IMG/VR virus record: IMGVR_UViG_3300032316_001466
Location: 1 to 20,516 of that record
Reading direction: 5' to 3' (one strand)
Length of the DNA stretch: 20,516 nucleotides
Origin: a virus
The notes under the pieces are model-generated. The model worked only from the letters and a program-made list of their open reading frames with translations. It was not told the origin of the DNA and made no database searches. Positions 1 to 19,628 of the stretch are shown piece by piece (the stretch's first letter is position 1; every line of letters starts with the position of its first letter). Both the position numbers and the translations under genes were made by a program.

Positions 1-12
1 ATATACCTGACA

Positions 13-600
13 ATGATGCGATTTAAAGAGTGGCTACTCGAGAACACGATCGGAACAGACGAGGTATTCAGCCAGATAGACGCCCTCTACGACAAGGCCA
101 AGTACGCCATAAAACTGGTGCAGCTGTACAGCAAGGCCACGAACAAGGGCCTACTCAAGAACATAAGCACCGTCGCCCCCCTTCACTCCGGGGTGTACGG
201 GCTCTACAACTCGTCCGAGAACAAGAAGGTCATCGGGCCCGCCGCGTCCAACAAGATAAGGTTCAAATTCGGACAGGACGCCCTCTCAAGCGCCAGAGTC
301 AACCGCCTTGCGAACGTCGTAATAAAGCAGTACGTGCCAGACATAGACGAAAGGCAGATCATCCCGAGCGACGTCATACATGTCAACGTTAGAAGAATAG
401 TGTCAGAGATGGGCGACACCCCGAGGGCGATAATCGAGATAGCAAGCACAATAGTCCACGAGGCCACGCACGAGATCGAATTCCAGAGCGCCGGAAAGAC
501 GGACGAGAACGGACCGAAAAAGGCCGAGGCGGACTTCCAGCGGTGGGTCTCTGCAAACTGGCGCCTTGCGGTATCAAAAATACCGCAATTGAACTTCTAG
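13..600 (+). CDS. Putative zincin-like metallopeptidase with capsid-targeting-like N terminus
   Basis: The 195-residue product has a HExxH zinc site, HEATH at residues 149-153, preceded by a hydrophobic helix (IEIASTIV). Glu172, in a KKAEADF segment 19 residues after the second His, could be the third ligand as in small gluzincins. Hydrolysis of a peptide bond is therefore plausible, but the substrate is unknown. The N terminus (MRFKEWLLE) resembles the short leaders that send T4 internal proteins into the prohead, with LLE as a possible prohead-protease site. Two ATGs (13 and 16) are possible starts, and the second gives the cleaner leader. The gene converges with the Pmp3-like gene, overlapping it by 4 nt. 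An ATATA stretch at the window edge may be part of a late promoter. The zinc motif is seen; the peptidase role and packaging are inferred. Confidence 0.6.
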   Translation: MMRFKEWLLENTIGTDEVFSQIDALYDKAKYAIKLVQLYSKATNKGLLKNISTVAPLHSGVYGLYNSSENKKVIGPAASNKIRFKFGQDALSSARVNRLANVVIKQYVPDIDERQIIPSDVIHVNVRRIVSEMGDTPRAIIEIASTIVHEATHEIEFQSAGKTDENGPKKAEADFQRWVSANWRLAVSKIPQLNF

Positions 601-773
601 TGCTTAAGCACCACGTAAACCCCGTGGATCAGGCCTGGAAAGTGGCCCATAAGGGTCAGCAACAAGTTGATCCAGAAATGGGAGCCGAACCCGAACTTTA
701 TGGCGACGCCGAGGGGCGGCAGGAACACGGTGACCAGAAGGGTTACCAGATCTTTTGCGTCCATGTCTTCCAT
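597..773 (-). CDS. Pmp3/YqaE (UPF0057)-like small membrane protein
   Basis: This 58-residue product is easily missed because it is so short. It matches the Pmp3/YqaE layout: a short acidic N terminus (MEDMDAKD), a first membrane helix containing the family hallmark FLPPLGV (residues 17-23), a short loop with FGFGSHFWIN, and a second helix with LLLTLMGHFPGLIHGVY, ending VVLKH. Cellular homologues are plasma-membrane proteolipids induced by salt, cold or membrane stress that affect membrane potential. The start is decided by a strong ribosome site, AAGGAGG at 780-786 (minus strand), 6 nt from the ATG. A CTATATA box lies further upstream at 802-808 (minus strand). The gene is divergent from the Pro/Gly-rich gene and its stop overlaps the zincin stop. 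Family assignment is by motif recognition. A role in holding or altering the host membrane during infection is inference. Confidence 0.8.
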   Translation of the reverse strand: MEDMDAKDLVTLLVTVFLPPLGVAIKFGFGSHFWINLLLTLMGHFPGLIHGVYVVLKH

Positions 774-827
774 TTTGAACCTCCTTGATTCAGCTCACAA
801 TTATATAGGAAATCACTACATAAGTCC
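774..827. promoter_or_regulatory. Divergent promoter region with two T4-late-like boxes
   Basis: The 54-nt gap between the divergent Pmp3-like and Pro/Gly-rich genes holds CTACATA at 816-822 (plus), 5 nt before the GTG at 828. It also holds CTATATA at 808-802 (minus), followed by a 28-nt leader containing AAGGAGG before the ATG at 773. T4 late promoters carry TATAAATA at about -13 to -6, and T4-like cyanophages use CTAAATA. The plus box therefore places the expected transcript start at the GTG itself. Promoter activity is inferred from sequence and spacing. Confidence 0.55.
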
Positions 828-1169
828 GTGAAGACTTTCCACCAATATCTGATGTCAGAAGCGACGCCTCCCCCCGGAGGACCGCCGCCAGGCAAGGGAG
901 GACCGCCCGGAGGGGGAGGGCCGCCGCCAGGCATGGGAGGACCGCCAATGGGAGGGCCGCCAATGGGAGGACCGCCAATGGGAGGGCCGCCGCCAGGCAT
1001 GGGAGGGCCGCCAATGGGAGGACCGCCAGGCATGGGAGGGCCGCCAGGCGACGCAGGACAGCCGGCTCCGAACAAGGTTCAGAAGGTCAGGTCTTCCGAT
1101 GTCTGGACGGCCCTTCGGAAATCCCTCAAGTCCCTCAAGGATGGACAGGAAAAGGCGGAAGGGGTATAG
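828..1169 (+). CDS. Pro/Gly-rich repeat protein with capsid-targeting-like leader
   Basis: The 113-residue product has three parts. Residues 1-12 (MKTFHQYLMSEA) closely resemble the capsid-targeting leader of T4 internal proteins (MKTYQEFIAEA type), ending in a possible MSE|A prohead-protease site. Residues 14-75 are a low-complexity tract of GGPP, GMGGPP and GGPPM units. Residues 80-113 are basic and helical (KVQKVRSSDVW...), possibly able to contact DNA. The start is a GTG with no Shine-Dalgarno site; a CTACATA box ends 5 nt before it, so the mRNA may be leaderless. No enzymatic motif is present. An internal head protein is the best guess; a flexible linker or scaffold is the alternative. 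The repeat resembles collagen only in composition, not in strict Gly-X-Y periodicity. Confidence 0.7.
   Translation: MKTFHQYLMSEATPPPGGPPPGKGGPPGGGGPPPGMGGPPMGGPPMGGPPMGGPPPGMGGPPMGGPPGMGGPPGDAGQPAPNKVQKVRSSDVWTALRKSLKSLKDGQEKAEGV
868..1050 (+). repeat. Tandem GGPP-coding repeat
   Basis: Short tandem units of the type GGGAGGACCGCCAAT and GGGAGGGCCGCC, 12 to 15 nt long, recur with small variations inside the Pro/Gly-rich gene. All copies keep the reading frame, so loss or gain of units would change protein length without a frameshift. The same repeat creates a long spurious Pro/Gly open frame on the minus strand. Confidence 0.85.
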
Positions 1170-1187
1170 TGTTTTCTAGTTGCTAAC

Positions 1188-2279
1188 ATGAAAATACTAA
1201 TATTCAGCGACCTCCACATCCATCCCCACAAGAAGTCCTCAGGCCGCCTGGACGACTGTCTAAAGGCGCTTGACTGGGTCTTTCAGGTGGCGGTCGACAG
1301 GGAGATTGAAAACATCGTTTTCCTCGGGGACCTCTTCCACGACAGGCAGAAGATCGACGTCCTCGCCTACCAGAGAACCTTCGAGATACTGGAGCGGCGG
1401 CTATCCGACGGAAGGTTCTCCCTTCACATACTTCTGGGTAACCACGACCTCTGGCACCACCAGAGGCTCGACATCTCAAGCGTCAACCCCCTGAGAACCC
1501 TTCCTCGAGTCACCATCGTGTCGGAGCCGTCCGTCCAGGAAATATCAGGGAAGTCTGGCTCTGTTTCCATGGGGTTCCTCCCTTACACCCACGCCCCGAT
1601 GGAAGACCTCAAGAAGGTCGAGGCCGAATGGCGATCCAAGGCCAAAAAGGGGTCCAGGAAGGTACTCGGAGGCCACATAGCGGTCGACGGGGCCGTATGG
1701 AACGTGAGACACAACACCATGTCCGACATAACCGTGGAGCACGAGGGCGACATGGTCAGGGTCGGCCCGGAGATATTCAAGGGCTGGGACAGGGTCTTCC
1801 TCGGCCACTACCACGCTGCCCAAAAAATGGGCAACAGGGTCGAGTACGTCGGCTCGCCCCTCCAGCTCAGCTTCGGAGAGGCGGACCAGGACAAGCACCT
1901 CCTAGTCTACGACCCGTCCTCCGACTCTGAGGAGTACATCAAGAACGACTTCAGCCCAAGGCACCTCATCATAGGCGAAGACCAAGTCGAATCCCCAGAC
2001 CTCAAGGGCAACTTCGTGCGACTGGAGGTCGAGGACATAGCCGACAAGCGCATGTCAGACCTGCGCCAGAAACTCGTCGAGTCCTGCGGCGTATCGACGC
2101 TGGAGATAAAGCAGAGGACGAGGGACGAATCCCACGTCATCGACGACGCCAAGTCCATACTCAGCGACGAGGACAAGATGATCGAGAGGTACGTGGAGCA
2201 GGTGGCCCCTGAGGGCCTCGACGCCGCGACGCTCATCCGCATAGGCACGGAAATATGCAGCAGGGCTTCCGAAGCATGA
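1188..2279 (+). CDS. 47: gp47-like recombination endonuclease subunit (Mre11/SbcD family)
   Basis: The 363-residue calcineurin-type nuclease carries the full metal-binding series: FSDLHIH (Asp8, His10), FLGDLFHDR (Asp48), LGNHD (Asn85-His86-Asp87) and GHYHAAQ (His207, His209). With gp46 it forms the Mre11-Rad50-type complex that resects DNA ends for recombination-dependent replication in T4-like phages. Length is close to T4 gp47. The C-terminal part (from about residue 270) is the expected Rad50-binding and capping region, rich in charged helices. The stop overlaps the gp46 start as ATGA, so the two are probably translationally coupled and made in equal amounts. No clear Shine-Dalgarno site precedes the ATG. 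Catalytic residues appear intact. Confidence 0.95.
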   Translation: MKILIFSDLHIHPHKKSSGRLDDCLKALDWVFQVAVDREIENIVFLGDLFHDRQKIDVLAYQRTFEILERRLSDGRFSLHILLGNHDLWHHQRLDISSVNPLRTLPRVTIVSEPSVQEISGKSGSVSMGFLPYTHAPMEDLKKVEAEWRSKAKKGSRKVLGGHIAVDGAVWNVRHNTMSDITVEHEGDMVRVGPEIFKGWDRVFLGHYHAAQKMGNRVEYVGSPLQLSFGEADQDKHLLVYDPSSDSEEYIKNDFSPRHLIIGEDQVESPDLKGNFVRLEVEDIADKRMSDLRQKLVESCGVSTLEIKQRTRDESHVIDDAKSILSDEDKMIERYVEQVAPEGLDAATLIRIGTEICSRASEA

Positions 2280-4285
2280 GAGACCTGCGAATCAAGTACA
2301 TCAAGGCCCAGAACTTCCTGTGCTTCGGCAGCGAGCCGATCGAGGTCGACCTCACCCACAGGGGGAAGGTCGTTCTCGTCAAGGGCATCAACCTCGACGT
2401 GCAGGAGGGAGAGTCCGCGGCCGCCAGCAACGGCGCAGGCAAGAGCTCCATACCAGAGATAATCGTCTACACGCTCTTCGGCAAGACGATCAAGCACCCC
2501 AAAAAGATCGGGCACAGGGACGTCATAAACAACTCCACCGGCAAAGGGCTCCGCACCGAAGTCGTATGGGGCGACTACCGGGCGGTGCGGACACGCAAGC
2601 CCGACGGATTGAGGCTTTGGGAGAGCTCCGAAGGCGTGTGGGACGACTCCACGGAGATAACCCTCGGAGGCCAGCCCGCCACCCAGAGGCTAATCGAAGA
2701 GAAGATAGGCCTCAACTACGAGACCTTCGTGAACGTGGTCGTATTCACGGACAACAACGCCGGGAGCTTTCTGGAGTGCGACTCCGCCGGCAAGAGAGAG
2801 ATAGTCGAGAACCTCCTCTCGCTAGAGAAGTACAAGGACTTCGCCGAAACGGCCAAGTCAGCGAAGAAGGAGAAGAAAGACTCCGCCAAGATTCTGGAGT
2901 CGGAGGTGACGAGCCTCAAGAGGCAGGTCGAGCAGTCCGAATCCAGAATCAAGACAGCCAAGCAAGAGGAGTCTTCTTGGCGATCCAAGATCGAGCTCGA
3001 GGCCACGAACATCAAGGCCAAGATCAAGGGCCTGAAGTCCCTCCTGAGCGCCCCCGCGGGCGACTCCGACACGAAGAGGTACAACGAGGCGGTATCGCGC
3101 ATCTCTGAAATCAACTCGGAGCTCCCGGCGCTGGAGACAAAGAGACAGAAGCTCGACGAGGTGCTGGACAAGGCCCAGGAAAAGCTGACGGAATCAAGAA
3201 AGTCGCAGAGCGAAATTCAGATAGAGTCCAAGGCCGCGGAATCAGAGGCCGAAAGGCTAAATTCGATCGCCAGAGACCACGAATCTGAAGTCGAAAGACT
3301 TGAGAGAAGCGAGGGCGGCACCTGCAAATACTGCCTCGGCAAGGTATCCAAGGAAAACTTCAAGAAATACGCGGAACAAATGAAGGAAAAGGCCTCCGCA
3401 ATAAGGGCCGAAGCCAAGGATGTGCTTTCGAAGAAGTCGGCCCTAGACGACAGAGCGGGCGTGGCGGCCGAAAAAATCGCGAACATATCCGAGGCCATTT
3501 CGACCGCCAAGTCGTCAATATCCACCACATCGTCCTCCATAAAGTCGATGAGGTCAGAGTTGGCCGAACTCGGCAGGATAGAGAAGCCGAAGTCGGGGGA
3601 CGCAAAATCCAGCGAGCTGGAGGGCGAGATCAAGGCTCTGGCGAACCAACTGGCAGAAAAATCCAAGCAACTAGAGGGGGACACCCCTTTCAAGTCGATG
3701 ATAGACTCCCTTTCGGACGACCTCTCCGCAAGGGACGAAGAACTCAAGGCCAAGGAGTCCGAGCTGAAGTCATTGGAGCTGGAGCTCCCTTATTACGACT
3801 TCTGGTGCGTCGGGTTCGGCGACGCCGGCATAAGGAAGTTCGTGATCGACGGGGTAGTTCCCGCCCTCAACTCGCGCATAGCCCACTGGCTTCAGTTCCT
3901 AATAGACGGACGCATATCGCTTGAGTTTAACAACGAACTCGAGGAGAGGATCGAGAGGCGACCGTCCGACGGAGACCCGTTCGTCTACCACGCGATGAGC
4001 GGCGGGGAGAGGCGAAGGCTCAACCTGGCGGTGTCGCAGGCCTTTGCGCACGTGATGATGTTGAACTCCGGAACCTGTCCGAGTCTAGTGTTCCTCGACG
4101 AGGTGACGACCAACATTGACCAAATGGGGGTGGTCGGGGTATACAATATGATAATGGAGCTTGCGAAGGACAGGCAGGTTTTCATAACCACCCACGACCA
4201 CAACCTGCTCGACATGCTGGAGGGTTGCGAGGTAATAACCCTAGAGAAAAAAGGCGGTTTCACGCGCCTGAAAAATTTGGGTTAA
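2276..4285 (+). CDS. 46: gp46-like recombination endonuclease ATPase subunit (Rad50/SbcC family)
   Basis: The 669-residue SMC-like ATPase has a Walker A site SNGAGKSS (residues 51-58), a long charged coiled coil (about 180-510) broken by a zinc hook CKYC (Cys350, Cys353), the ABC signature MSGGERRR (574-581), a Walker B VFLDEVTT (Asp608-Glu609) and an H-loop in TTHDHN (His640). With gp47 it processes double-strand breaks, and the hook should join two complexes through one zinc ion. The start at 2276 overlaps the gp47 stop (ATGA). An upstream in-frame ATG at 2255 would add seven residues inside gp47 and is less likely. Length is somewhat greater than T4 gp46 (about 560), mostly in the coiled coil. 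Confidence 0.95.
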   Translation: MRDLRIKYIKAQNFLCFGSEPIEVDLTHRGKVVLVKGINLDVQEGESAAASNGAGKSSIPEIIVYTLFGKTIKHPKKIGHRDVINNSTGKGLRTEVVWGDYRAVRTRKPDGLRLWESSEGVWDDSTEITLGGQPATQRLIEEKIGLNYETFVNVVVFTDNNAGSFLECDSAGKREIVENLLSLEKYKDFAETAKSAKKEKKDSAKILESEVTSLKRQVEQSESRIKTAKQEESSWRSKIELEATNIKAKIKGLKSLLSAPAGDSDTKRYNEAVSRISEINSELPALETKRQKLDEVLDKAQEKLTESRKSQSEIQIESKAAESEAERLNSIARDHESEVERLERSEGGTCKYCLGKVSKENFKKYAEQMKEKASAIRAEAKDVLSKKSALDDRAGVAAEKIANISEAISTAKSSISTTSSSIKSMRSELAELGRIEKPKSGDAKSSELEGEIKALANQLAEKSKQLEGDTPFKSMIDSLSDDLSARDEELKAKESELKSLELELPYYDFWCVGFGDAGIRKFVIDGVVPALNSRIAHWLQFLIDGRISLEFNNELEERIERRPSDGDPFVYHAMSGGERRRLNLAVSQAFAHVMMLNSGTCPSLVFLDEVTTNIDQMGVVGVYNMIMELAKDRQVFITTHDHNLLDMLEGCEVITLEKKGGFTRLKNLG

Positions 4286-4290
4286 TAGAC

Positions 4291-4297
4291 TTACATA
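4291..4297 (+). promoter_or_regulatory. Possible late-type promoter box upstream of nrdB
   Basis: TTACATA, preceded by C, lies in the 46-nt gap between gp46 and nrdB and resembles the CTACATA boxes elsewhere in the window. It would give a leader of about 30 nt containing AAAAGGAAAAG just before the nrdB ATG at 4332. A nucleotide-metabolism operon would not be expected to be exclusively late, so this call is tentative. Confidence 0.3.
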
Positions 4298-4331
4298 CTC
4301 TCGCGTTTCAATCAGCAAAAGGAAAAGACAC

Positions 4332-5303
4332 ATGATTTTCGAAGAGCAAATCAGCCGGAAGCCCGACAATTACCCATGGACCCAGGATTTCATAGAGGCC
4401 ATGCACAATGGCTTCTGGACGGACAAGGAGTTCAGCTTCCAGAGCGACAAGCAGGACTTCATGGTCTCCCTGAACGACCAGGAGAAAGAGATCATTGTTC
4501 GCGCGTTAGCCACCATCGGACAGCTTGAGATAAGCGTTAAGAAGTTCTGGGCGAAGCTCGGCGACAACCTCCCCCACCCCAGCATCGGCGACATGGGATA
4601 TGTCATGGCGAATACCGAGGTGATCCACGGCGATGCATACGAGAGGCTCCTAGAGGTTCTGGGAATCGACGACGCCTTTGAGAAGATACTCGAGCTCGAC
4701 ATCGTAAAGGGCAGGGTGAATTACCTTCGCAAGCACCTGCACAAGTTCCACGCGGATAACCGCAGGCAGTTCGTCTACTCGCTCGTCCTTTTCACCCTCT
4801 TCGTGGAGAACATAGCCCTCTTCTCGCAGTTCTACACCATCAGCTGGTTCGGTCGTTACAAGAACGTTCTCAAGGACACCAACAAGCAGGTCGAGTACAC
4901 GAGCAGGGAGGAGAACCTTCACGCCATGATCGGCATGAAGATCGTCAAGGCCATACGAAAAGAGCACCCGGAGTTCTTCGACGAGCAACTAGAGGCAAAG
5001 ATCGCCCACGAGGCAGAACAGGCCGTCAAGTACGAGATGGAAATCATCGAGTGGATCGTCAACGGATACGGCGAAGACAAACTCAACTCGCCGGTGCTGA
5101 AGGAGTTCATAAAGAACAGGATGAACGAATCCCTTCGGGAGATAGGATTTAATATGGTTTTTGATGTGGACAAAGAACTTCTTTCTAAAACGAGGTGGTT
5201 CGACGAGCAGATTCTTGGAAACAACCAATCTGATTTTTTTCATTCAAGACCAGTAGAATATTCGAAGAAATCTAAAAGTTTTGCCGCGGAGGATTTGTTT
5301 TGA
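4332..5303 (+). CDS. nrdB: Ribonucleotide reductase class I small (radical) subunit
   Basis: The 323-residue ferritin-like subunit houses the dinuclear metal site and stable radical used by NrdA. Visible ligands are Glu66 (in GQLEISVKKFW), the E-x-x-H-x-x-x-Y motif of EVIHGDAY (Glu96, His99, radical Tyr103), Glu159 (LFVEN) and Glu194/His197 (EENLH). These match the E. coli order D84, E115, H118, Y122, E204, E238, H241, with Glu replacing the first Asp. The C-terminal tail that docks into NrdA ends KSFAAEDLF. There is no N-terminal ATP cone. The last 150 nt or so are clearly richer in A+T than the rest and match the inserted endonuclease gene that follows, suggesting this end was replaced together with it. 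The stop overlaps the next start (TTGA). Confidence 0.95.
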   Translation: MIFEEQISRKPDNYPWTQDFIEAMHNGFWTDKEFSFQSDKQDFMVSLNDQEKEIIVRALATIGQLEISVKKFWAKLGDNLPHPSIGDMGYVMANTEVIHGDAYERLLEVLGIDDAFEKILELDIVKGRVNYLRKHLHKFHADNRRQFVYSLVLFTLFVENIALFSQFYTISWFGRYKNVLKDTNKQVEYTSREENLHAMIGMKIVKAIRKEHPEFFDEQLEAKIAHEAEQAVKYEMEIIEWIVNGYGEDKLNSPVLKEFIKNRMNESLREIGFNMVFDVDKELLSKTRWFDEQILGNNQSDFFHSRPVEYSKKSKSFAAEDLF

Positions 5304-6973
5304 ATAGTATTGGAACAAAAGAATTCATAAAAAGAAGCAAAAAAAAGTTTGGAAACAAATACGGTTATTCAAAAACTGAATATAAAAACAACAGGTTTGG
5401 CGTAATTATAACATGCAAGAAGCATGGCGATGTTACAATTAATCCTAATTCGCACCTTTCTGGATGCGGATGTAATAAGTGCGGTAGGGAAATCAATGGA
5501 AAATCACACAAATACACTACGGATGAGTTTGTAGACAAGGCTCGTTCCATATATGGCGACAAATACGACTACAGCAAGGTTGTTTATGAACACAGCCTGA
5601 AGAAGGTAACTGTAATATGCCCATCTCACGGCGCATTTCAAATACGTCCTTCAAACCACATAAACAATAGGCAAGGCTGTCCCGACTGTGGTAATGAATC
5701 TACTGGTTCCAAACAAAAAAGGACAAAAGAACAGTTTTTATCGCTCGTCTGCAAGAAAAATGGATTCGAGAATTATCAGTTTTCAGAAGTAGTAGATTTC
5801 AAGAATAAAAAACAGAAGGTCAAGGTGGTCTGCAACAGGCATGGGCCCTATATGAAAAGTACGGAGGACATCCTGGAGAGCAGATACTTCGGATGCAAGT
5901 CGTGCAGAATAGAAGACGATAGGCACGATACCGAAATCTTCGTCCGAAGATCCTCAGAGGCTCATTCGGGTCGTTACTCGTACGAGAAATCAAAATATCT
6001 TAAGTCGCACAAAAAGGTGACGGTAACATGTCCGAATCACGGCCCCTTCAGCGCCAAAGCGTATATTCATGTGGCCGGTGGAGGACATTGTCCCAAATGC
6101 AATCCACAACATAGTGCCGGCCAAGTGGAGATAATGAGTTTTTTGAAGTCGCTTGGCGTTAAAGGCGCCTTTATGTCTTATCGCGAAGTGCCAGAAGTGA
6201 CAGAAATAGATGTGTATTGTCCAGAAAGAAATATTGGAGTGGAATTCAATGGGCTATACTGGCACAGCGAGGAATTCAAAGACAAGAATTATCACATAGA
6301 TAAAACAAAGGCCGCTGCATCACAAGGCATAAGACTGATACATATATTTGAAGACGAGTGGAATATCAAGAAGGAAATATGTAAAGGCATGCTTGCCAAT
6401 TCTTTCAAAGCATGTCAAGAAAGAATTCATGCAAGAAAGTGCAAGATAGCCGAAGTAAATCCCAAAGTCGCAAGAATTTTCCTTGATGAAAACCACATCC
6501 AAGGATATTGCCCATCCAAATTCATCTATGGTCTTTTCATGGAAGACAGACTCGTCAGCATTATGACATTCGGGGCCAACAGGATTTGCTTGGGATCAAA
6601 AGCAAAGAAAGGGGAATACGAACTCCTCAGGTTCTGTAGCCTGAAGGGCGCCAGTGTTCCCGGCTCCGCATCGAGGTTGTTCAAACATTTTACTTCTTGC
6701 CAAAAACCGACTCGTATAGTCAGTTACTGCGACATGAGGTGGGGAACAGGCAAGGTTTACGAGATTCTCGGATTCAAAAAAATCAAAGAGACGCAACCGA
6801 ACTACTTCTACACCAGAGGCTCCACGAGATATGGTAGGTTTGCGTTCAGAAAAGACAGACTTGTCTCCAAGGGTTACGACAAGTCAAAGACGGAAAAACA
6901 GATAATGTCAGAACTCGGATACTTGAGAATATACGACTGCGGGTGCCACAAATTTGAATGGAAAAATACATGA
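5300..6973 (+). CDS. Free-standing homing endonuclease, EDxHD (Vsr-like) type with zinc-finger repeats
   Basis: The 557-residue protein begins with four repeats of about 55-65 residues (near 8-62, 77-131, 146-203 and 213-268). Each has a FxxxxxxxxGxxYxYSK-like start, a C..HG core and a CxxC end (for example CNKCG, CPDCG, CPKCN), as in the DUF723-type DNA-binding repeats of phage homing endonucleases. Residues about 272-355 form a nuclease core with TEIDVY, GVEFNGLYWHSEE, YHIDKTKAA and HIFEDEW, matching the EDxHD family related to Vsr mismatch endonuclease (I-Bth0305I type). A further C-terminal domain (about 380-557) looks GNAT-like and includes GFKKI and FYTRGSTRYGR. The gene is markedly AT-rich against GC-rich neighbours. 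It begins with TTG overlapping the nrdB stop and ends inside the nrdA start. It likely cuts the nrdB-nrdA junction of phages lacking it. Confidence 0.85.
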   Translation: MNSIGTKEFIKRSKKKFGNKYGYSKTEYKNNRFGVIITCKKHGDVTINPNSHLSGCGCNKCGREINGKSHKYTTDEFVDKARSIYGDKYDYSKVVYEHSLKKVTVICPSHGAFQIRPSNHINNRQGCPDCGNESTGSKQKRTKEQFLSLVCKKNGFENYQFSEVVDFKNKKQKVKVVCNRHGPYMKSTEDILESRYFGCKSCRIEDDRHDTEIFVRRSSEAHSGRYSYEKSKYLKSHKKVTVTCPNHGPFSAKAYIHVAGGGHCPKCNPQHSAGQVEIMSFLKSLGVKGAFMSYREVPEVTEIDVYCPERNIGVEFNGLYWHSEEFKDKNYHIDKTKAAASQGIRLIHIFEDEWNIKKEICKGMLANSFKACQERIHARKCKIAEVNPKVARIFLDENHIQGYCPSKFIYGLFMEDRLVSIMTFGANRICLGSKAKKGEYELLRFCSLKGASVPGSASRLFKHFTSCQKPTRIVSYCDMRWGTGKVYEILGFKKIKETQPNYFYTRGSTRYGRFAFRKDRLVSKGYDKSKTEKQIMSELGYLRIYDCGCHKFEWKNT

Positions 6974-8622
6974 CAGAAAAAGAATATTATTGGCTCAACT
7001 CCCACAGCCGCCTCTTCCTCGAGCGGGGTTATCTGGAGCCCGACGTCACCCCGGAGCAGAGGATCAGGCAGATTGCGGAGAACGCCGAAAGAATACTCAA
7101 AATCAAGGGCTTCGCCGACAAGTTCGAGGGCTACATGAAGCGAGGGTTCTACTCTCTTGCAACCCCCGTCTGGTGCAACTTCGGCAATAAGAGGGGGCTT
7201 CCGGTGAGCTGCTTCGGAAGCTACGTCGAGGACAAGATGGAGGCCATCCTTACGAAGGCCGCCGAAGTCGGGATCATGAGCAAGATGGGAGGCGGAACCA
7301 GTGGCTTCTTCGGGGCCCTGCGAGCCAGAGGCACGAAGATCAGCGTCGGCGGCGAGAGCAGCGGCGCCGTCCACTTCATGGAAATCTTCGACAAGGTCAG
7401 CGAGGTCATCAGCCAGGGAAGCGCCCGAAGGGGCTCCTTTGCGGCCTACATGCCCATAGAACACCCGGACATCGAGGAGTTCCTGAGAATCAGGAGCGAG
7501 GGACACAGCATACAGAACATGAGCATCGGCGTCACAGTCACCGACAAGTTCATGAATGAACTAGTGGAGGGCGACAAGGACAAGAGAAAGATATGGGCCA
7601 AGGTCATCCAGAAGAGGTTCGAGACCGGATATCCCTACATAATGTTCGTCGACACGGCCAACAAGAGCGCCCCCAAGGTCTACAAGGACAAGAAGCTCAA
7701 GATCAAGGCCTCAAACCTATGCTCCGAGATACAACTTTTCTCCGATGAGGACCACTCTTTCGTATGCGTCCTCTCCAGCCTCAACCTGCTCCACTGGGAC
7801 GAGATCGCGGAAACCGACGCCGTGGAGACCATGGTCAGGTTCCTCGACAGCGTCTGCGAGGAGTTCATACAGAAGACGGAGGGCGTGAGGTACATGGAGG
7901 CGCCCCGCAGGTTCGCAATCGAACAGAGGGCCCTCGGGCTGGGCGTCCTCGGCTGGCACTCCTACCTCCAAAGCAGAATGATAGGGTTCGAGAGCATGGA
8001 GGCGAAACTCAAGAACACCGAAATCTGGAAGACCATACGCCAGCGCGCCGACAAGGCCACCGAGGAAATGGCCGAGGAGTACGGCGAGCCGGAGCTCCTC
8101 AAGGGCTACGGCAGGAGGAACGTCACCACCCTGGCGGTCGCGCCCACCACATCGAGCAGCTTCATACTCGGCCAGGTGAGCCCAAGCATAGAGCCACTCA
8201 ACTCGAACTACTTCGTCAAGAACCTCGCGAAGGGCAAGTTCACATACAAGAACCCCTGCCTCAAGGAGATTCTCAAGAAACACGAGAGGAACGACGAGGA
8301 GACCTGGAAGAGCATCCTCATCAAGGGCGGATCGGTACAGCACCTCGACTTCCTCACCAAGGAGGAGAAGGACGTCTTCAAGACCTTCGGGGAGATAAGC
8401 CAGAAGGAGATCGTCATACAGGCCGCCCAGAGGCAGAAGTACATAGATCAGTCCCAGAGCCTAAACCTCACGATCCCTCCTTCCACCTCCCCCAAGGACG
8501 TCAACAAGCTGCTAATCGATGGGTGGGAGATGGGAATAAAGACCTTCTACTACCAGAGGTCGGCGAACCCGGCTCAGGAGCTTGCCCGCTCGATACTCAC
8601 TTGCTCATCGTGCGAGGCCTGA
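6958..8622 (+). CDS. nrdA: Ribonucleotide reductase class I large (catalytic) subunit, short form without ATP cone
   Basis: The 554-residue product reduces ribonucleoside diphosphates with the radical supplied by NrdB. Catalytic features in order: Cys85 (PVSCFG, equivalent to E. coli C225), MGGGTSG, NLCSE with Asn253, Cys255 and Glu257 (N437, C439, E441), Cys270 (C462), radical-transfer Tyr531-Tyr532 (FYYQRS) and tail cysteines 549 and 552 (CSSC) that shuttle electrons. The protein starts close to the catalytic barrel and lacks roughly the first 140 residues of E. coli NrdA, including the ATP cone that senses the dATP/ATP ratio. The start is 6958, or 6970, where ATGA overlaps the endonuclease stop. 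The first 35-40 nt share the endonuclease gene's AT-rich composition. Confidence 0.95.
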   Translation: MEKYMTEKEYYWLNSHSRLFLERGYLEPDVTPEQRIRQIAENAERILKIKGFADKFEGYMKRGFYSLATPVWCNFGNKRGLPVSCFGSYVEDKMEAILTKAAEVGIMSKMGGGTSGFFGALRARGTKISVGGESSGAVHFMEIFDKVSEVISQGSARRGSFAAYMPIEHPDIEEFLRIRSEGHSIQNMSIGVTVTDKFMNELVEGDKDKRKIWAKVIQKRFETGYPYIMFVDTANKSAPKVYKDKKLKIKASNLCSEIQLFSDEDHSFVCVLSSLNLLHWDEIAETDAVETMVRFLDSVCEEFIQKTEGVRYMEAPRRFAIEQRALGLGVLGWHSYLQSRMIGFESMEAKLKNTEIWKTIRQRADKATEEMAEEYGEPELLKGYGRRNVTTLAVAPTTSSSFILGQVSPSIEPLNSNYFVKNLAKGKFTYKNPCLKEILKKHERNDEETWKSILIKGGSVQHLDFLTKEEKDVFKTFGEISQKEIVIQAAQRQKYIDQSQSLNLTIPPSTSPKDVNKLLIDGWEMGIKTFYYQRSANPAQELARSILTCSSCEA

Positions 8623-8623
8623 A

Positions 8624-8986
8624 TTGTCGGACAAAAGCAGAACATGGTTCCTGGACTTCGACGGCACCCTGGTTCTCCAGAAAAGCTACCTTTCGGACAT
8701 GGACTACATCATGCCCGAGACTTTGGACTTCTTCAGGAACCACGTGCGGGAAGACGACCGAGTGGTCATCACGACGGCCAGGGAGGGGGAGGAACACAGA
8801 GACAGGATATCAAGGTTCATGTCGGCCTACGGCCTAAAGTGCGACCTGATAATATGCGACCTCCCGACTGGCCCCAGAATAGTGGTCAACGACACCAAGC
8901 CGGACGGCACGGCGACCGCCCACGGCGTCAGGCTGAAGAGGGACGCCGGAATCAAAGACGAGGACCTCAAGCATGTCAGAAATTAA
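8624..8986 (+). CDS. HAD-superfamily phosphatase-like protein
   Basis: The 120-residue product has the HAD nucleophile motif FLDFDGTL (Asp11, Asp13), a motif II VVITTAR, and a late acidic motif IVVNDTKPDG. This supports a Mg-dependent phosphohydrolase acting through an aspartyl-phosphate. It is shorter than most HAD enzymes and has no large cap domain. The nrdA stop and the proposed TTG start are separated by a single base; an in-frame ATG upstream would lie within nrdA. It ends 14 nt inside the dUTPase gene. Sitting between nrdA and dut, it may act on a nucleotide or deoxynucleotide monophosphate, but that rests on context only. Confidence 0.75.
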   Translation: MSDKSRTWFLDFDGTLVLQKSYLSDMDYIMPETLDFFRNHVREDDRVVITTAREGEEHRDRISRFMSAYGLKCDLIICDLPTGPRIVVNDTKPDGTATAHGVRLKRDAGIKDEDLKHVRN

Positions 8987-9401
8987 GGTGAAGAAAACAA
9001 GGGCGTCTGCTGTCGTCCCGAAAAGGGCGCATCCGACCGACGCCGGGGCCGACCTCCACTCCTTGGAGGAAATCATCATACAGCCTATGGAGAGAAGGGC
9101 CGTCTCCACGGGAATATGCCTAGAGATACCAGAGGGTCATTACGGCAGGGTTGCTCCGAGGTCCGGCCTGGCCGTGAGGCACGGCATAGACGTACTCGCC
9201 GGCGTCGTGGACTCTTCGTACAGGGGTGAGATCAAGGTCGTCCTGCACAACACCGACAAGGCCGAGTCCTTCCGCGTCGGCCGTGGCGACAAGATAGCCC
9301 AGATAATCATCGAGAGGCACTACAACCTGGAGTTCAGGGAGGTCGAAGATCTGTCCGAGACCGACAGGGGCGAGGGCGGATTCGGCTCCAGCGGCAAATG
9401 A
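8973..9401 (+). CDS. dut: dUTP diphosphatase
   Basis: The 142-residue trimeric-type dUTPase has all five family motifs: DAGADL (23-28), RSGLA (63-67), GVVDSSYRGEI (77-87, with catalytic Asp80 and uracil-stacking Tyr83), GDKIAQIII (105-113) and RGEGGFGSSG (132-141). It hydrolyses dUTP to dUMP and pyrophosphate, keeping uracil out of phage DNA and feeding thymidylate synthesis. Length is normal for the family. The ATG lies inside the end of the HAD gene (14-nt overlap) and the stop overlaps the SET gene start (ATGA), consistent with one cotranscribed nucleotide-metabolism operon. Confidence 0.96.
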   Translation: MSEIKVKKTRASAVVPKRAHPTDAGADLHSLEEIIIQPMERRAVSTGICLEIPEGHYGRVAPRSGLAVRHGIDVLAGVVDSSYRGEIKVVLHNTDKAESFRVGRGDKIAQIIIERHYNLEFREVEDLSETDRGEGGFGSSGK

Positions 9402-9781
9402 GCGAATACGCTCCTTTCCTCGACAGCCGCCTGTACATCTCCCGAGACGAGTCCGTCGGGTACGGCGTTTTCACCAAAGAGTCGATCAAGAGCCATGCTT
9501 TCATCGAGATAGCCCCAGTAGTCGACTTTTCTCCCGAAAGCCGGCCAGACGAAAACCTCATGAAGCATGTGGTAGAATGGGAGGGAAGGCTGGCCGTGGC
9601 ACTCGGCTGGACCATGGTCTATAACCACAGCGACGCCAACAACTGCGCATTCTCCATGAACTACTTCGACAAACTAATCGCCATCATTTCAATCCGCGAC
9701 ATAGAGGCCGGGGAGCAGCTCACCGTCAACTACGGGCCCAACTGGTTCTCCTCCAGAGGCATGCACAAGGTGACGCTTTGA
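9398..9781 (+). CDS. SET-domain protein (putative protein-lysine methyltransferase)
   Basis: The compact 127-residue protein is essentially one SET domain. It shows the N-terminal GYGVF segment (residues 21-25) that contacts S-adenosylmethionine, the central YNHSDANN (75-82) matching the NHS pseudoknot motif, and the C-terminal IEAGEQLTVNYG (102-113), matching the GEELTxDY motif and ending with the catalytic-type Tyr112. There is no pre-SET or post-SET zinc cluster. SET enzymes methylate protein lysines; the target here could be a host or phage protein. It starts at an ATGA overlap with dut and ends at a TTGA overlap with the next gene, so it belongs to the nrd/dut operon. Fold assignment is fairly secure; the substrate is unknown. 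Confidence 0.8.
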   Translation: MSEYAPFLDSRLYISRDESVGYGVFTKESIKSHAFIEIAPVVDFSPESRPDENLMKHVVEWEGRLAVALGWTMVYNHSDANNCAFSMNYFDKLIAIISIRDIEAGEQLTVNYGPNWFSSRGMHKVTL

Positions 9782-10140
9782 ACAAGCACGCCTGCCCCGT
9801 CTGCGGACAGAACATGGACATATATACCACGGCCCACAAGAACGCCCCGTTCGTCGACAACAAGACCTACCACGCAATGTGCTTCACCTGCTACTTCGTC
9901 CCCAAGACAGGCGAGCAGAAGTACTCCGAAGACGGTACCGTCTCCGAGGACGTGGACCTGCCCTACTCCTGCCAGAGCCTCTGCACCCCGAGGGAGCTGT
10001 ACGATTCCGGGGCCGCCGACTCCCTCAAGCAGGCCAAGACCTCCGTCGAGGCCGTGTCCGAGGCCTGCCGCGGGGTCAAGCCCCCCAAAAAGCCGACGAA
10101 GAGGCCCGCCGCCTGTTGGAACATCCCCCGCAGACACTAG
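9778..10140 (+). CDS. Cys-rich, probably zinc-binding protein of unknown function
   Basis: The 120-residue product opens with a probable zinc ribbon: CPVC (Cys6, Cys9) and CFTC (Cys35, Cys38), with further cysteines at CQSLC downstream. The C-terminal third is basic and proline-rich (KPPKKPTKRP) and could bind nucleic acid. The start is a TTG overlapping the SET gene stop (TTGA), which suggests translational coupling. The end of the gene overlaps the CTAGATA box that precedes the gene at 10149. I do not recognise the family. Confidence 0.7.
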   Translation: MNKHACPVCGQNMDIYTTAHKNAPFVDNKTYHAMCFTCYFVPKTGEQKYSEDGTVSEDVDLPYSCQSLCTPRELYDSGAADSLKQAKTSVEAVSEACRGVKPPKKPTKRPAACWNIPRRH

Positions 10141-10148
10141 ATAAGACC
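10137..10148 (+). promoter_or_regulatory. Late-type promoter box abutting start codon
   Basis: CTAGATA (10137-10143) followed by AGACC leads straight into the ATG at 10149. The surrounding CACTAGATAAGACC matches CACTACATAAGTCC before the GTG at 828 at 12 of 14 positions, with identical spacing. By T4 late-promoter geometry, transcription would start at the A of the ATG. The box overlaps the stop codon of the upstream gene. Confidence 0.55.
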
Positions 10149-10511
10149 ATGGAATTCAAGGACTTCATACTGAACGAGGCCGAACAGTACTTCTCCCAGA
10201 GGGTGTCCGACATCCTCAGCGCCCTCCAGGACCTCAACGACAGCGCCGGGGACATGGGGACAAGGCACCTCGTATCCAACGCCCAGGGCATCGCAAACCA
10301 GATGAGGAGGGTGGTTCACACCCACTGGCCCCAGAGCCAGGAACCGAGCCTCAAGACCCTCCAGAAGTGCGGCGTGGCCATCATGAGGGCAATAGAGGAG
10401 AAGGACGACCTTCAGGGCGTCCTGAAGGCCTGCCAGGCCCACCTGGAGTCCATGGCCGGCAAACAGGAAAAGCCCTCCAACTCCCTAGCCACAGAGGAAC
10501 CGGCGGCCTGA
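10149..10511 (+). CDS. Small protein with capsid-targeting-like leader
   Basis: The 120-residue product begins MEFKDFILNEA, which matches the T4 internal-protein leader pattern and contains LNE|A, a consensus prohead-protease site ((L/I)xE|A). The remainder is helical and mildly charged (SDILSALQDLNDS..., then NQMRRVVHTHW), ending in a disordered tail (KPSNSLATEEPAA). There is no catalytic motif. The ATG has no strong Shine-Dalgarno site and is preceded by a CTAGATA late-type box with 5-nt spacing. A packaged internal head protein is the favoured interpretation. The family is not recognised. Confidence 0.7.
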   Translation: MEFKDFILNEAEQYFSQRVSDILSALQDLNDSAGDMGTRHLVSNAQGIANQMRRVVHTHWPQSQEPSLKTLQKCGVAIMRAIEEKDDLQGVLKACQAHLESMAGKQEKPSNSLATEEPAA

Positions 10512-10534
10512 TTTTGGTATTTTTTTCTTCCGCA

Positions 10535-10541
10535 CTACATA
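10535..10541 (+). promoter_or_regulatory. Late-type promoter box before the PD-(D/E)XK gene
   Basis: CTACATA, again within CACTACATA as at 814-822, ends 6 nt before the GTG at 10548. It follows a T7 run (10520-10526) in the 36-nt intergenic gap. No Shine-Dalgarno site is present between box and start, so a very short or absent leader is predicted. Confidence 0.5.
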
Positions 10542-10547
10542 CTTCTT

Positions 10548-11114
10548 GTGGAAGAAGATGCCGAAATAGAAGACATTTTAAGCGATAAGCCCAAGAAGAT
10601 AAAGTCTGGGAGGAAGGGCAAGAGGGTCGAGTTGGACCTCATAAAAAGCCTCAACGAGCGGTTCGCGGCCGCCCTGGCGGCCAGACCCAACGCGGGCAAG
10701 TTCTCCAGGTCGGTGGGGTCCGGAAACCGCTGGGGCCAGCGGGTTCACCTTAGCAAGGCCGCCTCCGACACCTACTCGGGCGATATAGTGTGCCCAGAGG
10801 GCTTCCTGTTCGTCCTAGAGAGCAAGGGCGGGTACAATGACATAGACCTCTGCACTGCCTTCTCCGGCCGTCAGAGCGAGCTGGACGCGTTCCTGAAGCA
10901 GGTGAGCGACGACTCCGCCAGGTGCGGCCGCATGCCTCTCCTCCTCTGGAAGAAAGACAGGAAGCCGAGGCTGGCCTTCCTCAGGACCTCCGACCTCGGC
11001 GACAGGTCGTTCCCCTGCATGATGCGCTACGGGGAATGGACGGCGGCGTCCTTCGACGATCTGGCATCCCTGGGGGACGACTTCTTCTTCAGCCCGACCC
11101 AAGAGCCCGCCTGA
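10548..11114 (+). CDS. PD-(D/E)XK-family nuclease (possible Holliday-junction resolvase-like)
   Basis: The 188-residue product shows the nuclease-fold signature: GKRVELDLIKSL in a first helix (Glu28), YSGDIV (Asp79), a hydrophobic strand, then LESKGG (Glu91-x-Lys93). This is the E ... D-(x)n-ExK arrangement of resolvase-like endonucleases. The stretch SRSVGSGNRWG is basic and Gly-rich and could contact DNA. The N terminus (about 25 residues) is charged and probably disordered. A role in junction resolution or end processing fits a phage that also encodes gp46/47. The GTG start follows a CTACATA box by 6 nt. The gene converges with the minus-strand gene at 11089, overlapping 26 nt. Confidence 0.65.
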   Translation: MEEDAEIEDILSDKPKKIKSGRKGKRVELDLIKSLNERFAAALAARPNAGKFSRSVGSGNRWGQRVHLSKAASDTYSGDIVCPEGFLFVLESKGGYNDIDLCTAFSGRQSELDAFLKQVSDDSARCGRMPLLLWKKDRKPRLAFLRTSDLGDRSFPCMMRYGEWTAASFDDLASLGDDFFFSPTQEPA

Positions 11115-16591: not shown

Positions 16592-16633
16592 CGCGTCCTC
16601 CTTGAGCAGACCCACAATATATGTATGTTTCTT

Positions 16634-17926: not shown

Positions 17927-17969
17927 AAAATCTCCGAAAAATTAGAGTCTGCCCTATCTTATATGAGCG
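17927..17969. promoter_or_regulatory. Divergent promoter region with CTTATAT/CATATAAG
   Basis: In this 43-nt gap CTTATAT (17958-17964, plus) ends 5 nt before the ATG at 17970, with no Shine-Dalgarno site between. Read on the minus strand the same bases give CATATAAG, upstream of the Cys-rich gene. The spacing to the plus gene matches the boxes at 816 and 10137, but the sequence fits CTAnATA less well. Confidence 0.4.
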
Positions 17970-18842
17970 ATGATCTTTGAAAATATTGCCCCTCTACGCA
18001 ACAGGAAAGCCGAAGAAGCCCCTTGGAGGGGGTCCTGCGCCCGCAAGCCCTGGGAATACAGGGTGACCGCCGTCATACCCGTGATGGACACGCCAGAGTG
18101 CCTAGAGCTTTGCGTCGAACTGATCCGCCTCCAGACCGAGAGGCCCTACATAGTCGTTGTGGACACCGGCAGCCAGAGGCAAAACCTAGAGCGGATACTG
18201 GACATGCACGCCGAGGACCTCGAGGTCCACTGCATCAGGCAGAACGGCACAATGCACCCCTCCGACCCCGTTTGCGTCGCCATGGACACCGCCCAGAGCA
18301 TGTGCAGGTCGGAATACATGTTCGCCACCCACTCCGACGCCTTTTTGATGAGAAGGGACTTCCTGGAGTGGATGCTCACGCTCTGCGGGGAAGAGGACGA
18401 AGGCCTATCCCCCGTGGTCGGATACGAGATGAGCCCGAGGAACCACGAAGACTGGAAGGGAATGATCAGCCACACGGCCACCATGTACCACATTCCAACC
18501 CTGGACAGGATAGGGTTCGGGTGGAGCATGAGAAGACTCGCATCGCTGTGCGGACTGCCCAACCAAGAACCCCACCCAGAAAGGCCAAACTGGCCCGACA
18601 CGGAGACCCTAGGGAACATGATCCTCAGGCACAACCGCACAAGAACGATGATCATAGGTTCAGAGTCCAACTTCGCCAGAAACAAAGACGAAAACATAGA
18701 CCACGCTAGGAGCATAACGCTTGGGATGCTGTATGCCCCCGACTACCACAAAGTCGCATCGGAGTGGCTCAAAGACGCCATGGACCAGGCAAGGTCCCGC
18801 ATAAATACTTGGAGGTCTTCGGACCACATCGGAGGAAATTGA
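17970..18842 (+). CDS. GT-A type glycosyltransferase-like protein
   Basis: The 290-residue product has the nucleotide-sugar half of a GT-A fold: YRVTAVIPVMDTPECLELCV (30-49), YIVVVDTGSQRQ (60-71), and later FATHSDAFLMRRDFLEWM (118-135), where HSD stands in for the DxD metal site. The C-terminal half contains conserved-looking His/Trp segments (YEMSPRNHEDWKG, PERPNWPDTE) that could form the acceptor site. It is likely cytoplasmic: no signal peptide or membrane helix. The target could be phage DNA, a virion protein or cell-wall polymer; the sequence does not tell. The stop overlaps the sigma gene start (TTGA). A CTTATAT box ends 5 nt before the ATG. Confidence 0.7.
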   Translation: MIFENIAPLRNRKAEEAPWRGSCARKPWEYRVTAVIPVMDTPECLELCVELIRLQTERPYIVVVDTGSQRQNLERILDMHAEDLEVHCIRQNGTMHPSDPVCVAMDTAQSMCRSEYMFATHSDAFLMRRDFLEWMLTLCGEEDEGLSPVVGYEMSPRNHEDWKGMISHTATMYHIPTLDRIGFGWSMRRLASLCGLPNQEPHPERPNWPDTETLGNMILRHNRTRTMIIGSESNFARNKDENIDHARSITLGMLYAPDYHKVASEWLKDAMDQARSRINTWRSSDHIGGN

Positions 18843-19372
18843 ACGAATACCTGAATAACAAGAATCTGGAGCGTCTCATCAACTCATTCCAAGAGTCCAA
18901 GAGAACCCAGGCGCGCCTCGGGATGCTCATAGAGGAGTCGGAGGAGACCGTTGCAAGAAAGAAGGCAAGGCAGGTCGACGACTCTCTCAACAGGGCCGTT
19001 TTGGACGTCAAGAGGTCCGAACTGAAAGACTGCGTCTCAAGGCACGAGGAATCAAAGCAGAAACTGGCCGTCGCCTTCTTCACTCTATCCGAGAACATAG
19101 TGAGGTACGCCAAGTTCCAGCTCATTGACGCCGACGACGCCACCCAGGAGGGGGTCATGATCTGCTTCGACAAGATAACGAGGTTCGACTCCCGCAAGGG
19201 AAAGGCGTTCAACTACATGACAACCTGCATACTCAACCACTTCCGGCAGCTATACAGGACGGCCAGGAACTACAACGAACTAAAAAAGAAGTACCTCAAC
19301 CACATACAGTTCGTAGAGGGCAAGTCCACCTTCAACAACGGCAAGCAGATGTTCGACAACAGCAGCCATTGA
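18839..19372 (+). CDS. 55: gp55-like late sigma factor
   Basis: The 177-residue product resembles T4 gp55, the small sigma-like protein that directs host RNA polymerase to late promoters. The recognisable part is sigma region 2: DADDATQEGVMICFDKITRF (97-116), then KGKAFNYMTTCILNHFRQLYR (120-140), matching the QE...F-D...F..Y.....N.F pattern of gp55. The N-terminal third is helical and charged. The C terminus (KQMFDNSSH) does not show the SLDFLYE-like sliding-clamp motif known from T4 gp55. Start is TTG 18839, overlapping the upstream stop (TTGA), with GGAGG close by at an unusually short 3-nt spacing. It would act on the CTAnATA boxes seen in this window. Confidence 0.75.
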   Translation: MNEYLNNKNLERLINSFQESKRTQARLGMLIEESEETVARKKARQVDDSLNRAVLDVKRSELKDCVSRHEESKQKLAVAFFTLSENIVRYAKFQLIDADDATQEGVMICFDKITRFDSRKGKAFNYMTTCILNHFRQLYRTARNYNELKKKYLNHIQFVEGKSTFNNGKQMFDNSSH

Positions 19373-19388
19373 TTTAATCTAAACAAAT

Positions 19389-19395
19389 CTATATA
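19389..19395 (+). promoter_or_regulatory. Late-type promoter box before the 74-residue gene
   Basis: CTATATA, followed by ATGTCCCC, ends 8 nt before the ATG at 19404 in an AT-rich 31-nt gap. The same CTATATAAT string occurs on the minus strand at 808-800. No Shine-Dalgarno site precedes the start. Confidence 0.5.
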
Positions 19396-19403
19396 ATGTC
19401 CCC

Positions 19404-19628
19404 ATGAGCGGAATAGACAACCTAGAGAGACAGGAACTAATCAACAAGCTAATCGCCAACGGATACGGCCAAATAGTGAAGGCGCTTCTGGAGGACGAGA
19501 AGAAGGTCTACACCAAGAAGGGCAGGCTCAACAAAAGCGGCGCCTGCCGCAGCCTCAACATAAAGTCCAAGCAGCTGGAGGACATGCTCTCCGAGATGAG
19601 AGACCTCCTCAAGAAAGACCTAGACTAA
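19404..19628 (+). CDS. Small basic helical protein next to the late sigma gene
   Basis: The 74-residue product has an N-terminal helix (LERQELINKLIANGYGQIV), a central basic segment VYTKKGRLNKSGACRSL that looks like a helix-turn-helix arm, and a C-terminal helix ending in KKDLD. A DNA-binding or transcription-related role is plausible from the charge pattern and its position after gp55; it could be a co-activator like T4 gp33, but the sequence does not resemble gp33. The stop overlaps the tail-tube gene stop by 4 nt (convergent). Confidence 0.65.
   Translation: MSGIDNLERQELINKLIANGYGQIVKALLEDEKKVYTKKGRLNKSGACRSLNIKSKQLEDMLSEMRDLLKKDLD

Follow-up and report, generated by a model that had tools for sequence, protein, structure and literature searches.

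T4-type late promoters fused to start codons and predicted leaderless late mRNAs in giant phages

INTRODUCTION

When a late-promoter box ends only a few nucleotides before a start codon, where does the mRNA begin? The question is raised by IMG/VR record IMGVR_UViG_3300032316_001466, a viral sequence of 20,516 bases that was analyzed here as the complete record (the window). Published T4-type late boxes end at −6 relative to the transcription start (PMC1524935, PMC2988020); the T4 late box TATAAATA lies at −13 to −6, and the Aeh1 box CTAAATA extends from −12 (PMC1524935). A preliminary description of the window had taken the T4 box to end 5 nt before the transcription start and had proposed that late boxes are fused to start codons, giving leaderless mRNAs. 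Because the T4 and Aeh1 boxes end at −6, a 5-nt gap would place +1 on the start codon.

The gene content of the window is that of a T4-type giant phage and includes SbcCD (gp46/47), class I ribonucleotide reductase, dUTPase, a baseplate hub, a gp19-like tail tube protein, and a gp55-like sigma factor. The closest named record is the uncultured 595-kb phage LR756511, with protein identities of 45 to 48%. The window also encodes a large HNH/homing endonuclease between two ribonucleotide reductase genes (positions 5300 to 6973; phrog_559, E = 3e-123) and a SET-domain protein between dUTPase and the gene at 9778 (9398 to 9781; PF00856, E = 5.8e-14).

RESULTS

Late boxes in the window

CTANATA occurs eight times in the window, compared with an average of 2.55 in shuffled sequence (eight was reached by 1 of 100 shuffles), and four of the eight boxes end 5 to 8 nt 5′ of a gene start. 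Two sites (814 to 830 and 10135 to 10151) had been described as sharing 14-mers that agree at 12 of 14 positions and lie exactly 5 nt from the start codon, and both points held. At the first, CTACATA (816 to 822, plus strand) is followed after 5 nt by GTG 828, which opens a predicted leaderless late gene (828 to 1169, plus strand). Its product, which had no PHROG match, has the N terminus MKTFHQYLMSEA, resembling T4 capsid-targeting sequences, and a tail of GGPPM repeats. The single orthologue found (G001) keeps the box as CTACATA-N5-ATG, with ATG replacing GTG. At the second, CTAGATA (10137 to 10143, plus strand), whose TAG also terminates the preceding gene, lies 5 nt before ATG 10149. This predicted leaderless late gene (10149 to 10511, plus strand) encodes a protein with the capsid-targeting-like N terminus MEFKDFILNEA and no PHROG match, and its gap-5 box is kept in nine relatives (L003, L004, L007, L010, L012, L013, L019, L026, and G015).

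A third box, CTACATA (10535 to 10541, plus strand), was located as claimed, 6 nt before GTG 10548, where a predicted leaderless late gene for a RusA-like Holliday-junction resolvase begins (10548 to 11114, plus strand; phrog_244, E = 2.6e-12). Its orthologues have CTATATA or TATATA 5 to 6 nt before ATG, and for the orthologues of both 10149 and 10548, a box at 5 to 6 nt is conserved across 35 to 58% GC. The genes at 828, 10149, and 10548 fit the predicted leaderless late pattern. Two of these three genes begin with GTG, which counts against a leaderless reading; in E. coli, GTG starts perform poorly when the mRNA is leaderless, although some bacteria do use GUG on such mRNAs (PMC9031893). A gene with the capsid-targeting-like start (M)MRFKEWLLEN (1 to 600, plus strand) has a promoter truncated at the edge of the contig (ATATA at 1 to 5), and orthologues of this gene, which starts at 13 in the window, carry TATATA 5 to 6 nt 5′ of ATG.

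Other boxes in the window have a T4-like arrangement with a Shine-Dalgarno (SD) leader. CTATATA (802 to 808, minus strand), which also includes TATAAT, lies 28 nt upstream of ATG 773 (minus strand), and TACATA (16620 to 16625, minus strand) lies 28 nt upstream of ATG 16591 (minus strand), each with AAGGAGG in between. The gene 3′ of the former encodes a Pmp3-type proteolipid (597 to 773, minus strand; E = 4.8e-19) and is divergent from the 828 gene.

The preliminary description had cited two further sites, before 17970 and 19404, and correctly reported that none of its five sites has an SD site between box and codon. CTTATAT (17958 to 17964, plus strand) does lie 5 nt before ATG 17970 and is a −10-like element conserved in near relatives. 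Despite this conservation, it does not match TANATA, and its assignment to the same box plan was unsupported. The 19404 site is discussed below with a second promoter class.

Spacing of boxes and gene starts in relatives

We fetched 80 related loci by their baseplate-hub protein and then 13 larger contigs (62 to 533 kb; 37 to 57% GC), in which 2,724 genes were called with a home-made hexamer model that included an SD bonus and was blind to the box. The first 50 kb of LR756511 (L199; positions 1 to 50000), which contain very few long standard-code open frames and one tRNA, were left out of gene-based counts since too few genes were called there.

The genome-wide search for CTANATA near gene starts that the preliminary description had suggested found the box to be enriched there. 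In the 13 contigs, TANATA ends 4 to 5 nt before the start of 146 genes (some orthologues being counted repeatedly across related genomes), compared with a mean of 7.0 (maximum, 12) for dinucleotide-shuffled upstream sequences and an expectation of 1.9 from interior ATGs. The spike is made up of 69 gap-4 and 80 gap-5 genes, and the background is ~4 per position. With the longer CTANATA, counts were 13, 43, 6, 9, and 5 at gaps 4 to 8, respectively, 11 for gaps 9 to 14 together, ~4 per position at 15 to 39, and ~1 per position past 45. In 20 related viral records, we counted 93 instances of CTANATA-N5-ATG but 18 of a reversed-pattern control. Chance as the source of the spacing was ruled out by the shuffles, the reversed-pattern controls, and the interior ATGs.

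The largest relative (G015; 532,729 bp) alone has 31 genes at gaps 4 to 5 versus 0.45 per position (P = 2e-36), and when its hexamers were scanned de novo, TATATA at gap 5 gave the strongest signal other than SD sites. One relative, G014, lacks the CTANATA-N5-ATG signal. Box genes in the relatives start with ATG in 96% of cases and lie closely behind a same-strand gene less often than other genes (9% versus 38%). A separate element, CTTANATA, is conserved 34 to 38 nt 5′ of nrdB, with an SD site, at window position 4332 and in orthologues; it may represent a separate, perhaps middle, promoter class, since late boxes almost never have a T immediately before TANATA.

Predicted transcription start sites

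The nucleotides that flank the start codon point to the same initiation site as the box geometry. A pyrimidine occupies −1 of the start codon in 137 of 149 box genes (92%) versus 1232 of 2481 no-box genes (50%; P = 3e-27). A pyrimidine at −1 is the usual preference at bacterial transcription start sites, and its presence in gap-4 and gap-5 genes alike would make the A of ATG the purine at which transcription starts. The SD-led late promoters, with boxes 16 to 44 nt upstream of the gene, allow the start site to be mapped independently of start codons: 83% of them have a purine 6 nt 3′ of the box (P = 2e-7), and steps from pyrimidine to purine are most frequent at just the two positions equivalent to gap 4 and gap 5.

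Gaps of 9 to 14 nt, which would leave no room for an SD site in the leader, are depleted, consistent with genes having either a full leader or none. SD sites of at least 4 nt precede 5% of genes at gaps 4 to 6, a value that is partly forced since the box takes the SD position, compared with 95% at gaps 15 to 25 and 63% of genes without a box. The central proposal of the preliminary description, late boxes fused to starts and predicted leaderless mRNAs, is thus upheld by the enrichment, the −1 pyrimidine, the start mapping at SD-led promoters, the empty gaps, and the orthologues of 10149 and 10548; from geometry and the −1 pyrimidine, the 5′ ends of late box genes are predicted to lie at the start codon.

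A gp55-like sigma factor and the proposed mechanism

The gp55-like late sigma factor that had been reported in the window is encoded at 18839 to 19372 (plus strand; TTG start with SD GGAGG), and this assignment was confirmed by phrog_234 (E = 1.1e-5), Pfam Sigma70_r2, and the predicted fold. Its AlphaFold model (pLDDT, 88) matched domain 2 of bacterial sigmaA in a fold search with probabilities near 1 and E values of only ~0.01; the best viral match was a sigma-like factor from KPV15, a T4-like Klebsiella phage. A profile search against PDB sequences gave no match. The gp55-like family was found in 13 of 13 relatives, and genes for gp21 protease and gp23 capsid protein also occur in the relatives. 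Short gp23-like fragments (open frames of ~90 to 150 amino acids [aa]) are present in G009, G012, G013, and G015, alongside a full-length gp23 gene in all of these except G013. Upstream of the gp55-like gene, G012, G015, G018, and G020 share a conserved TATATAGATACCC-like element (AAATAGATACCCC in G020).

Genes 3′ of boxes include those for RusA-like resolvase, the large terminase, and a head-tail adaptor, as well as tag-bearing genes described below. DnaB-like helicase and thymidylate kinase genes also carry boxes, so the gene set is not purely late, and the capsid gene has no box within 75 nt.

Of the features of T4-type late promoters, the TANATA box, the start position, and a gp55-like factor are present, and recognition of the box by this factor is predicted. 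We consider it very likely that T4-type late promoters fused to start codons give leaderless late mRNAs in these giant phages. The boxes, with a consensus of roughly [C/A/G]TANATA, would be read by host RNA polymerase carrying the phage gp55-like sigma factor, and initiation would occur 5 to 6 nt 3′ of the box. From the positions, spacing, and conservation of the boxes, we infer that the start codon of a large class of late genes sits at the initiation point, such that the mRNA would start with AUG, sometimes GUG, and would be translated leaderless, without SD pairing. Further late genes of these phages have the box at least 15 nt upstream and an SD leader, as in T4.

A sigma70-type class of predicted leaderless genes

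A second class of promoters (TT[GT]AY..., 16- to 18-bp spacer, TANNNT) is also aligned to start codons, with a peak at gaps 6 to 7 (27 genes versus 1.7 per position). At these gaps, sigma70 geometry likewise places +1 on the start codon. The 19404 site belongs here. CTATATA (19389 to 19395) does lie 8 nt before ATG 19404, as described, and the leaderless prediction stood; the late-box reading was discarded in favor of a conserved sigma70-type promoter, TTGATT-N17-TATAAT (19369 to 19397, plus strand), that ends 6 nt before the ATG. The same arrangement occurs in L003, L004, and L005, and other orthologues have gaps of 6 to 7. The gene, which lies downstream of the gp55-like gene and encodes a 74-aa protein (19404 to 19628, plus strand), looks leaderless and is probably transcribed from this promoter. 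In G015 (loci L083 to L109), leaderless early-type promoters have the form TTTACA-N17-TANNAT-N6-ATG, and GGGG often precedes the −10 element.

A capsid-targeting-like tag in predicted leaderless late genes

The N-terminal resemblance to T4 capsid-targeting sequences extends to the relatives. The tag pattern M..F..[FWY][LIVM], which was written after the first examples were seen, matches 69 of 134 leaderless late genes (51%) versus 89 of 2,481 no-box genes (4%), and each of the 13 genomes by itself gives nominal significance (P < 0.05) for this association. The consensus, MxF[KR][ED][WFY]L...E (MxFKEWLxxxE), is like the MKTFKEFT of T4 IPI. T4 capsid-targeting sequences of the IPI/IPIII type are N-terminal tags of 10 to 20 residues that gp21 cleaves behind LxE or IxE; here, [LIM]xE occurs at residues 6 to 20 in 37% versus 18%, and a gp21-type protease scored above the family cut-off in seven relatives. 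Only 8 of 95 SD-led late genes carry the tag. An association with leaderlessness as such was ruled out, since none of 27 sigma70-type leaderless genes is tagged.

The tagged proteins have little else in common: the 68 that are long enough for comparison represent 50 unrelated families, and the 15 from G015 represent 15. T4 internal proteins are likewise diverse defense proteins that share only the capsid-targeting sequence (PMC3012670), and by analogy the tagged proteins are probably packed in the virus head. Since the leaderless class is enriched in tagged but unrelated proteins, box, start codon, and tag probably form one short 5′ module that would confer late expression and packaging. More tentatively, this module of ~60 bp (box, 4- to 5-nt spacer, start codon, and capsid-targeting codons) may be portable, a recipient gene becoming late transcribed, leaderless translated, and head packed, and dozens of unrelated cargo proteins may have been recruited in this way.

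DISCUSSION

The tight spacing could have other causes. Late promoters might initiate a few nucleotides off the start codon, giving leaders of 1 to 4 nt or requiring another start codon. Promoter start sites generally vary by 1 to 2 nt, gaps 4 and 5 are both used, and gaps 6 to 8 are mildly enriched. However, the −1 pyrimidine in both main gap classes points to the A of ATG as the purine start, the SD-led promoters give the same two start positions, and mRNAs with leaders of 1 to 4 nt would still be functionally leaderless; we therefore regard this offset as unlikely. Alternatively, the box might be a translation signal, an AU-rich motif bound by the ribosome or S1, in an mRNA begun farther upstream, which would also account for a fixed distance to the start and the lack of an SD site. 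Yet the box is also enriched 15 to 40 nt 5′ of genes that have an SD leader, where it is followed 6 nt on by an initiator-like purine, box genes stand at the starts of transcription units, and the sequence fits gp55-type late promoters (PMC1524935), with a gp55-like factor in every relative searched, all of which makes a translation signal quite improbable. That the sigma70-type class is aligned to start codons as well might suggest a mere by-product of genome compaction, with ordinary −10 boxes near start codons and no leaderless translation. We find this highly improbable considering that the spike is 1 to 2 nt wide and absent from shuffles and interior ATGs, that intermediate gaps of 9 to 14 nt are depleted, and that T4, Aeh1, KVP40, S-PM2, and CBA120 show no excess.

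Late promoters fused to start codons, the reading that we prefer, are not a general T4-family trait, which was ruled out since no excess was seen in T4, Aeh1, KVP40, S-PM2, CBA120, phiKZ, or P-SSM2. The pattern does exceed its control in LR756511 (36 versus 7). The cultured Xanthomonas phage XacN1 gives a weak signal (8 genes at gap 5 versus a background of 0.6); none of its boxes falls at gaps 9 to 13, and the SD-led ones are most frequent near 22 nt. Its predicted leaderless starts include 73051 (plus strand), 158321 (minus strand), 163334 (minus strand), and 307415 (minus strand) of AP018399. Phage-encoded IF3 or bS21 was rejected as an explanation: the genes are present in only 3 of 17 records (LR756511, G010, and G014), one of which, G014, is without the leaderless box signal.

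The promoters resemble T4 late promoters (gp55-gp33-gp45, with the Aeh1 variant CTAAATA) in box class, in needing no −35 element, in the gp55-type sigma factor, and in a box position of −12/−13 to −6 (PMC1524935, PMC2988020). They differ in that the T4 box lies 12 to 35 nt (mode, 27 to 29) before the start with an SD site between, whereas a large class here lies at 4 to 5 nt and is predicted to be leaderless. The T4 coactivator gp33 and sliding clamp gp45 were not detected in eight relatives with Pfam models (PF16805 and PF02916) that matched nothing in the control genomes either. In Deinococcus-Thermus, a −10 motif at a specific spacing of a few base pairs before the open reading frame has been shown experimentally to give leaderless mRNA (PMC12340547). 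Those promoters are cellular, with a TANNNT −10 element, in contrast to the phage late sigma class and head-protein tags described here, but since the same architecture is established with a cellular sigma factor (PMC12340547), the mechanism proposed for the phages is plausible. Lambda cI and other leaderless phage mRNAs (PMC9031893) likewise have 5′ ends at the AUG and SD-free translation, but these are single genes, compared with a genome-wide class of 30 genes in the 533-kb relative. T4 internal proteins share a short N-terminal tag on unrelated proteins (IPI; PMC3012670, PMC5694885), but T4 ipI has an SD leader, whereas the tag here comes after a leaderless late promoter and is carried by roughly half of the genes in that class.

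We found no report of a genome-wide leaderless late mRNA class in T4-type giant phages in the literature searched; the novelty lies in the phage late version of the architecture and in its link to head cargo. Such a class, predicted here and unlike the situation in T4, raises the question of how infected cells efficiently translate leaderless mRNA late in infection. XacN1, which is cultured and has the same two-class spacing, makes the prediction testable in culture. The box could also serve to correct gene starts in these genomes, and tag and box together provide a sequence rule for finding proteins that are probably injected with the DNA.
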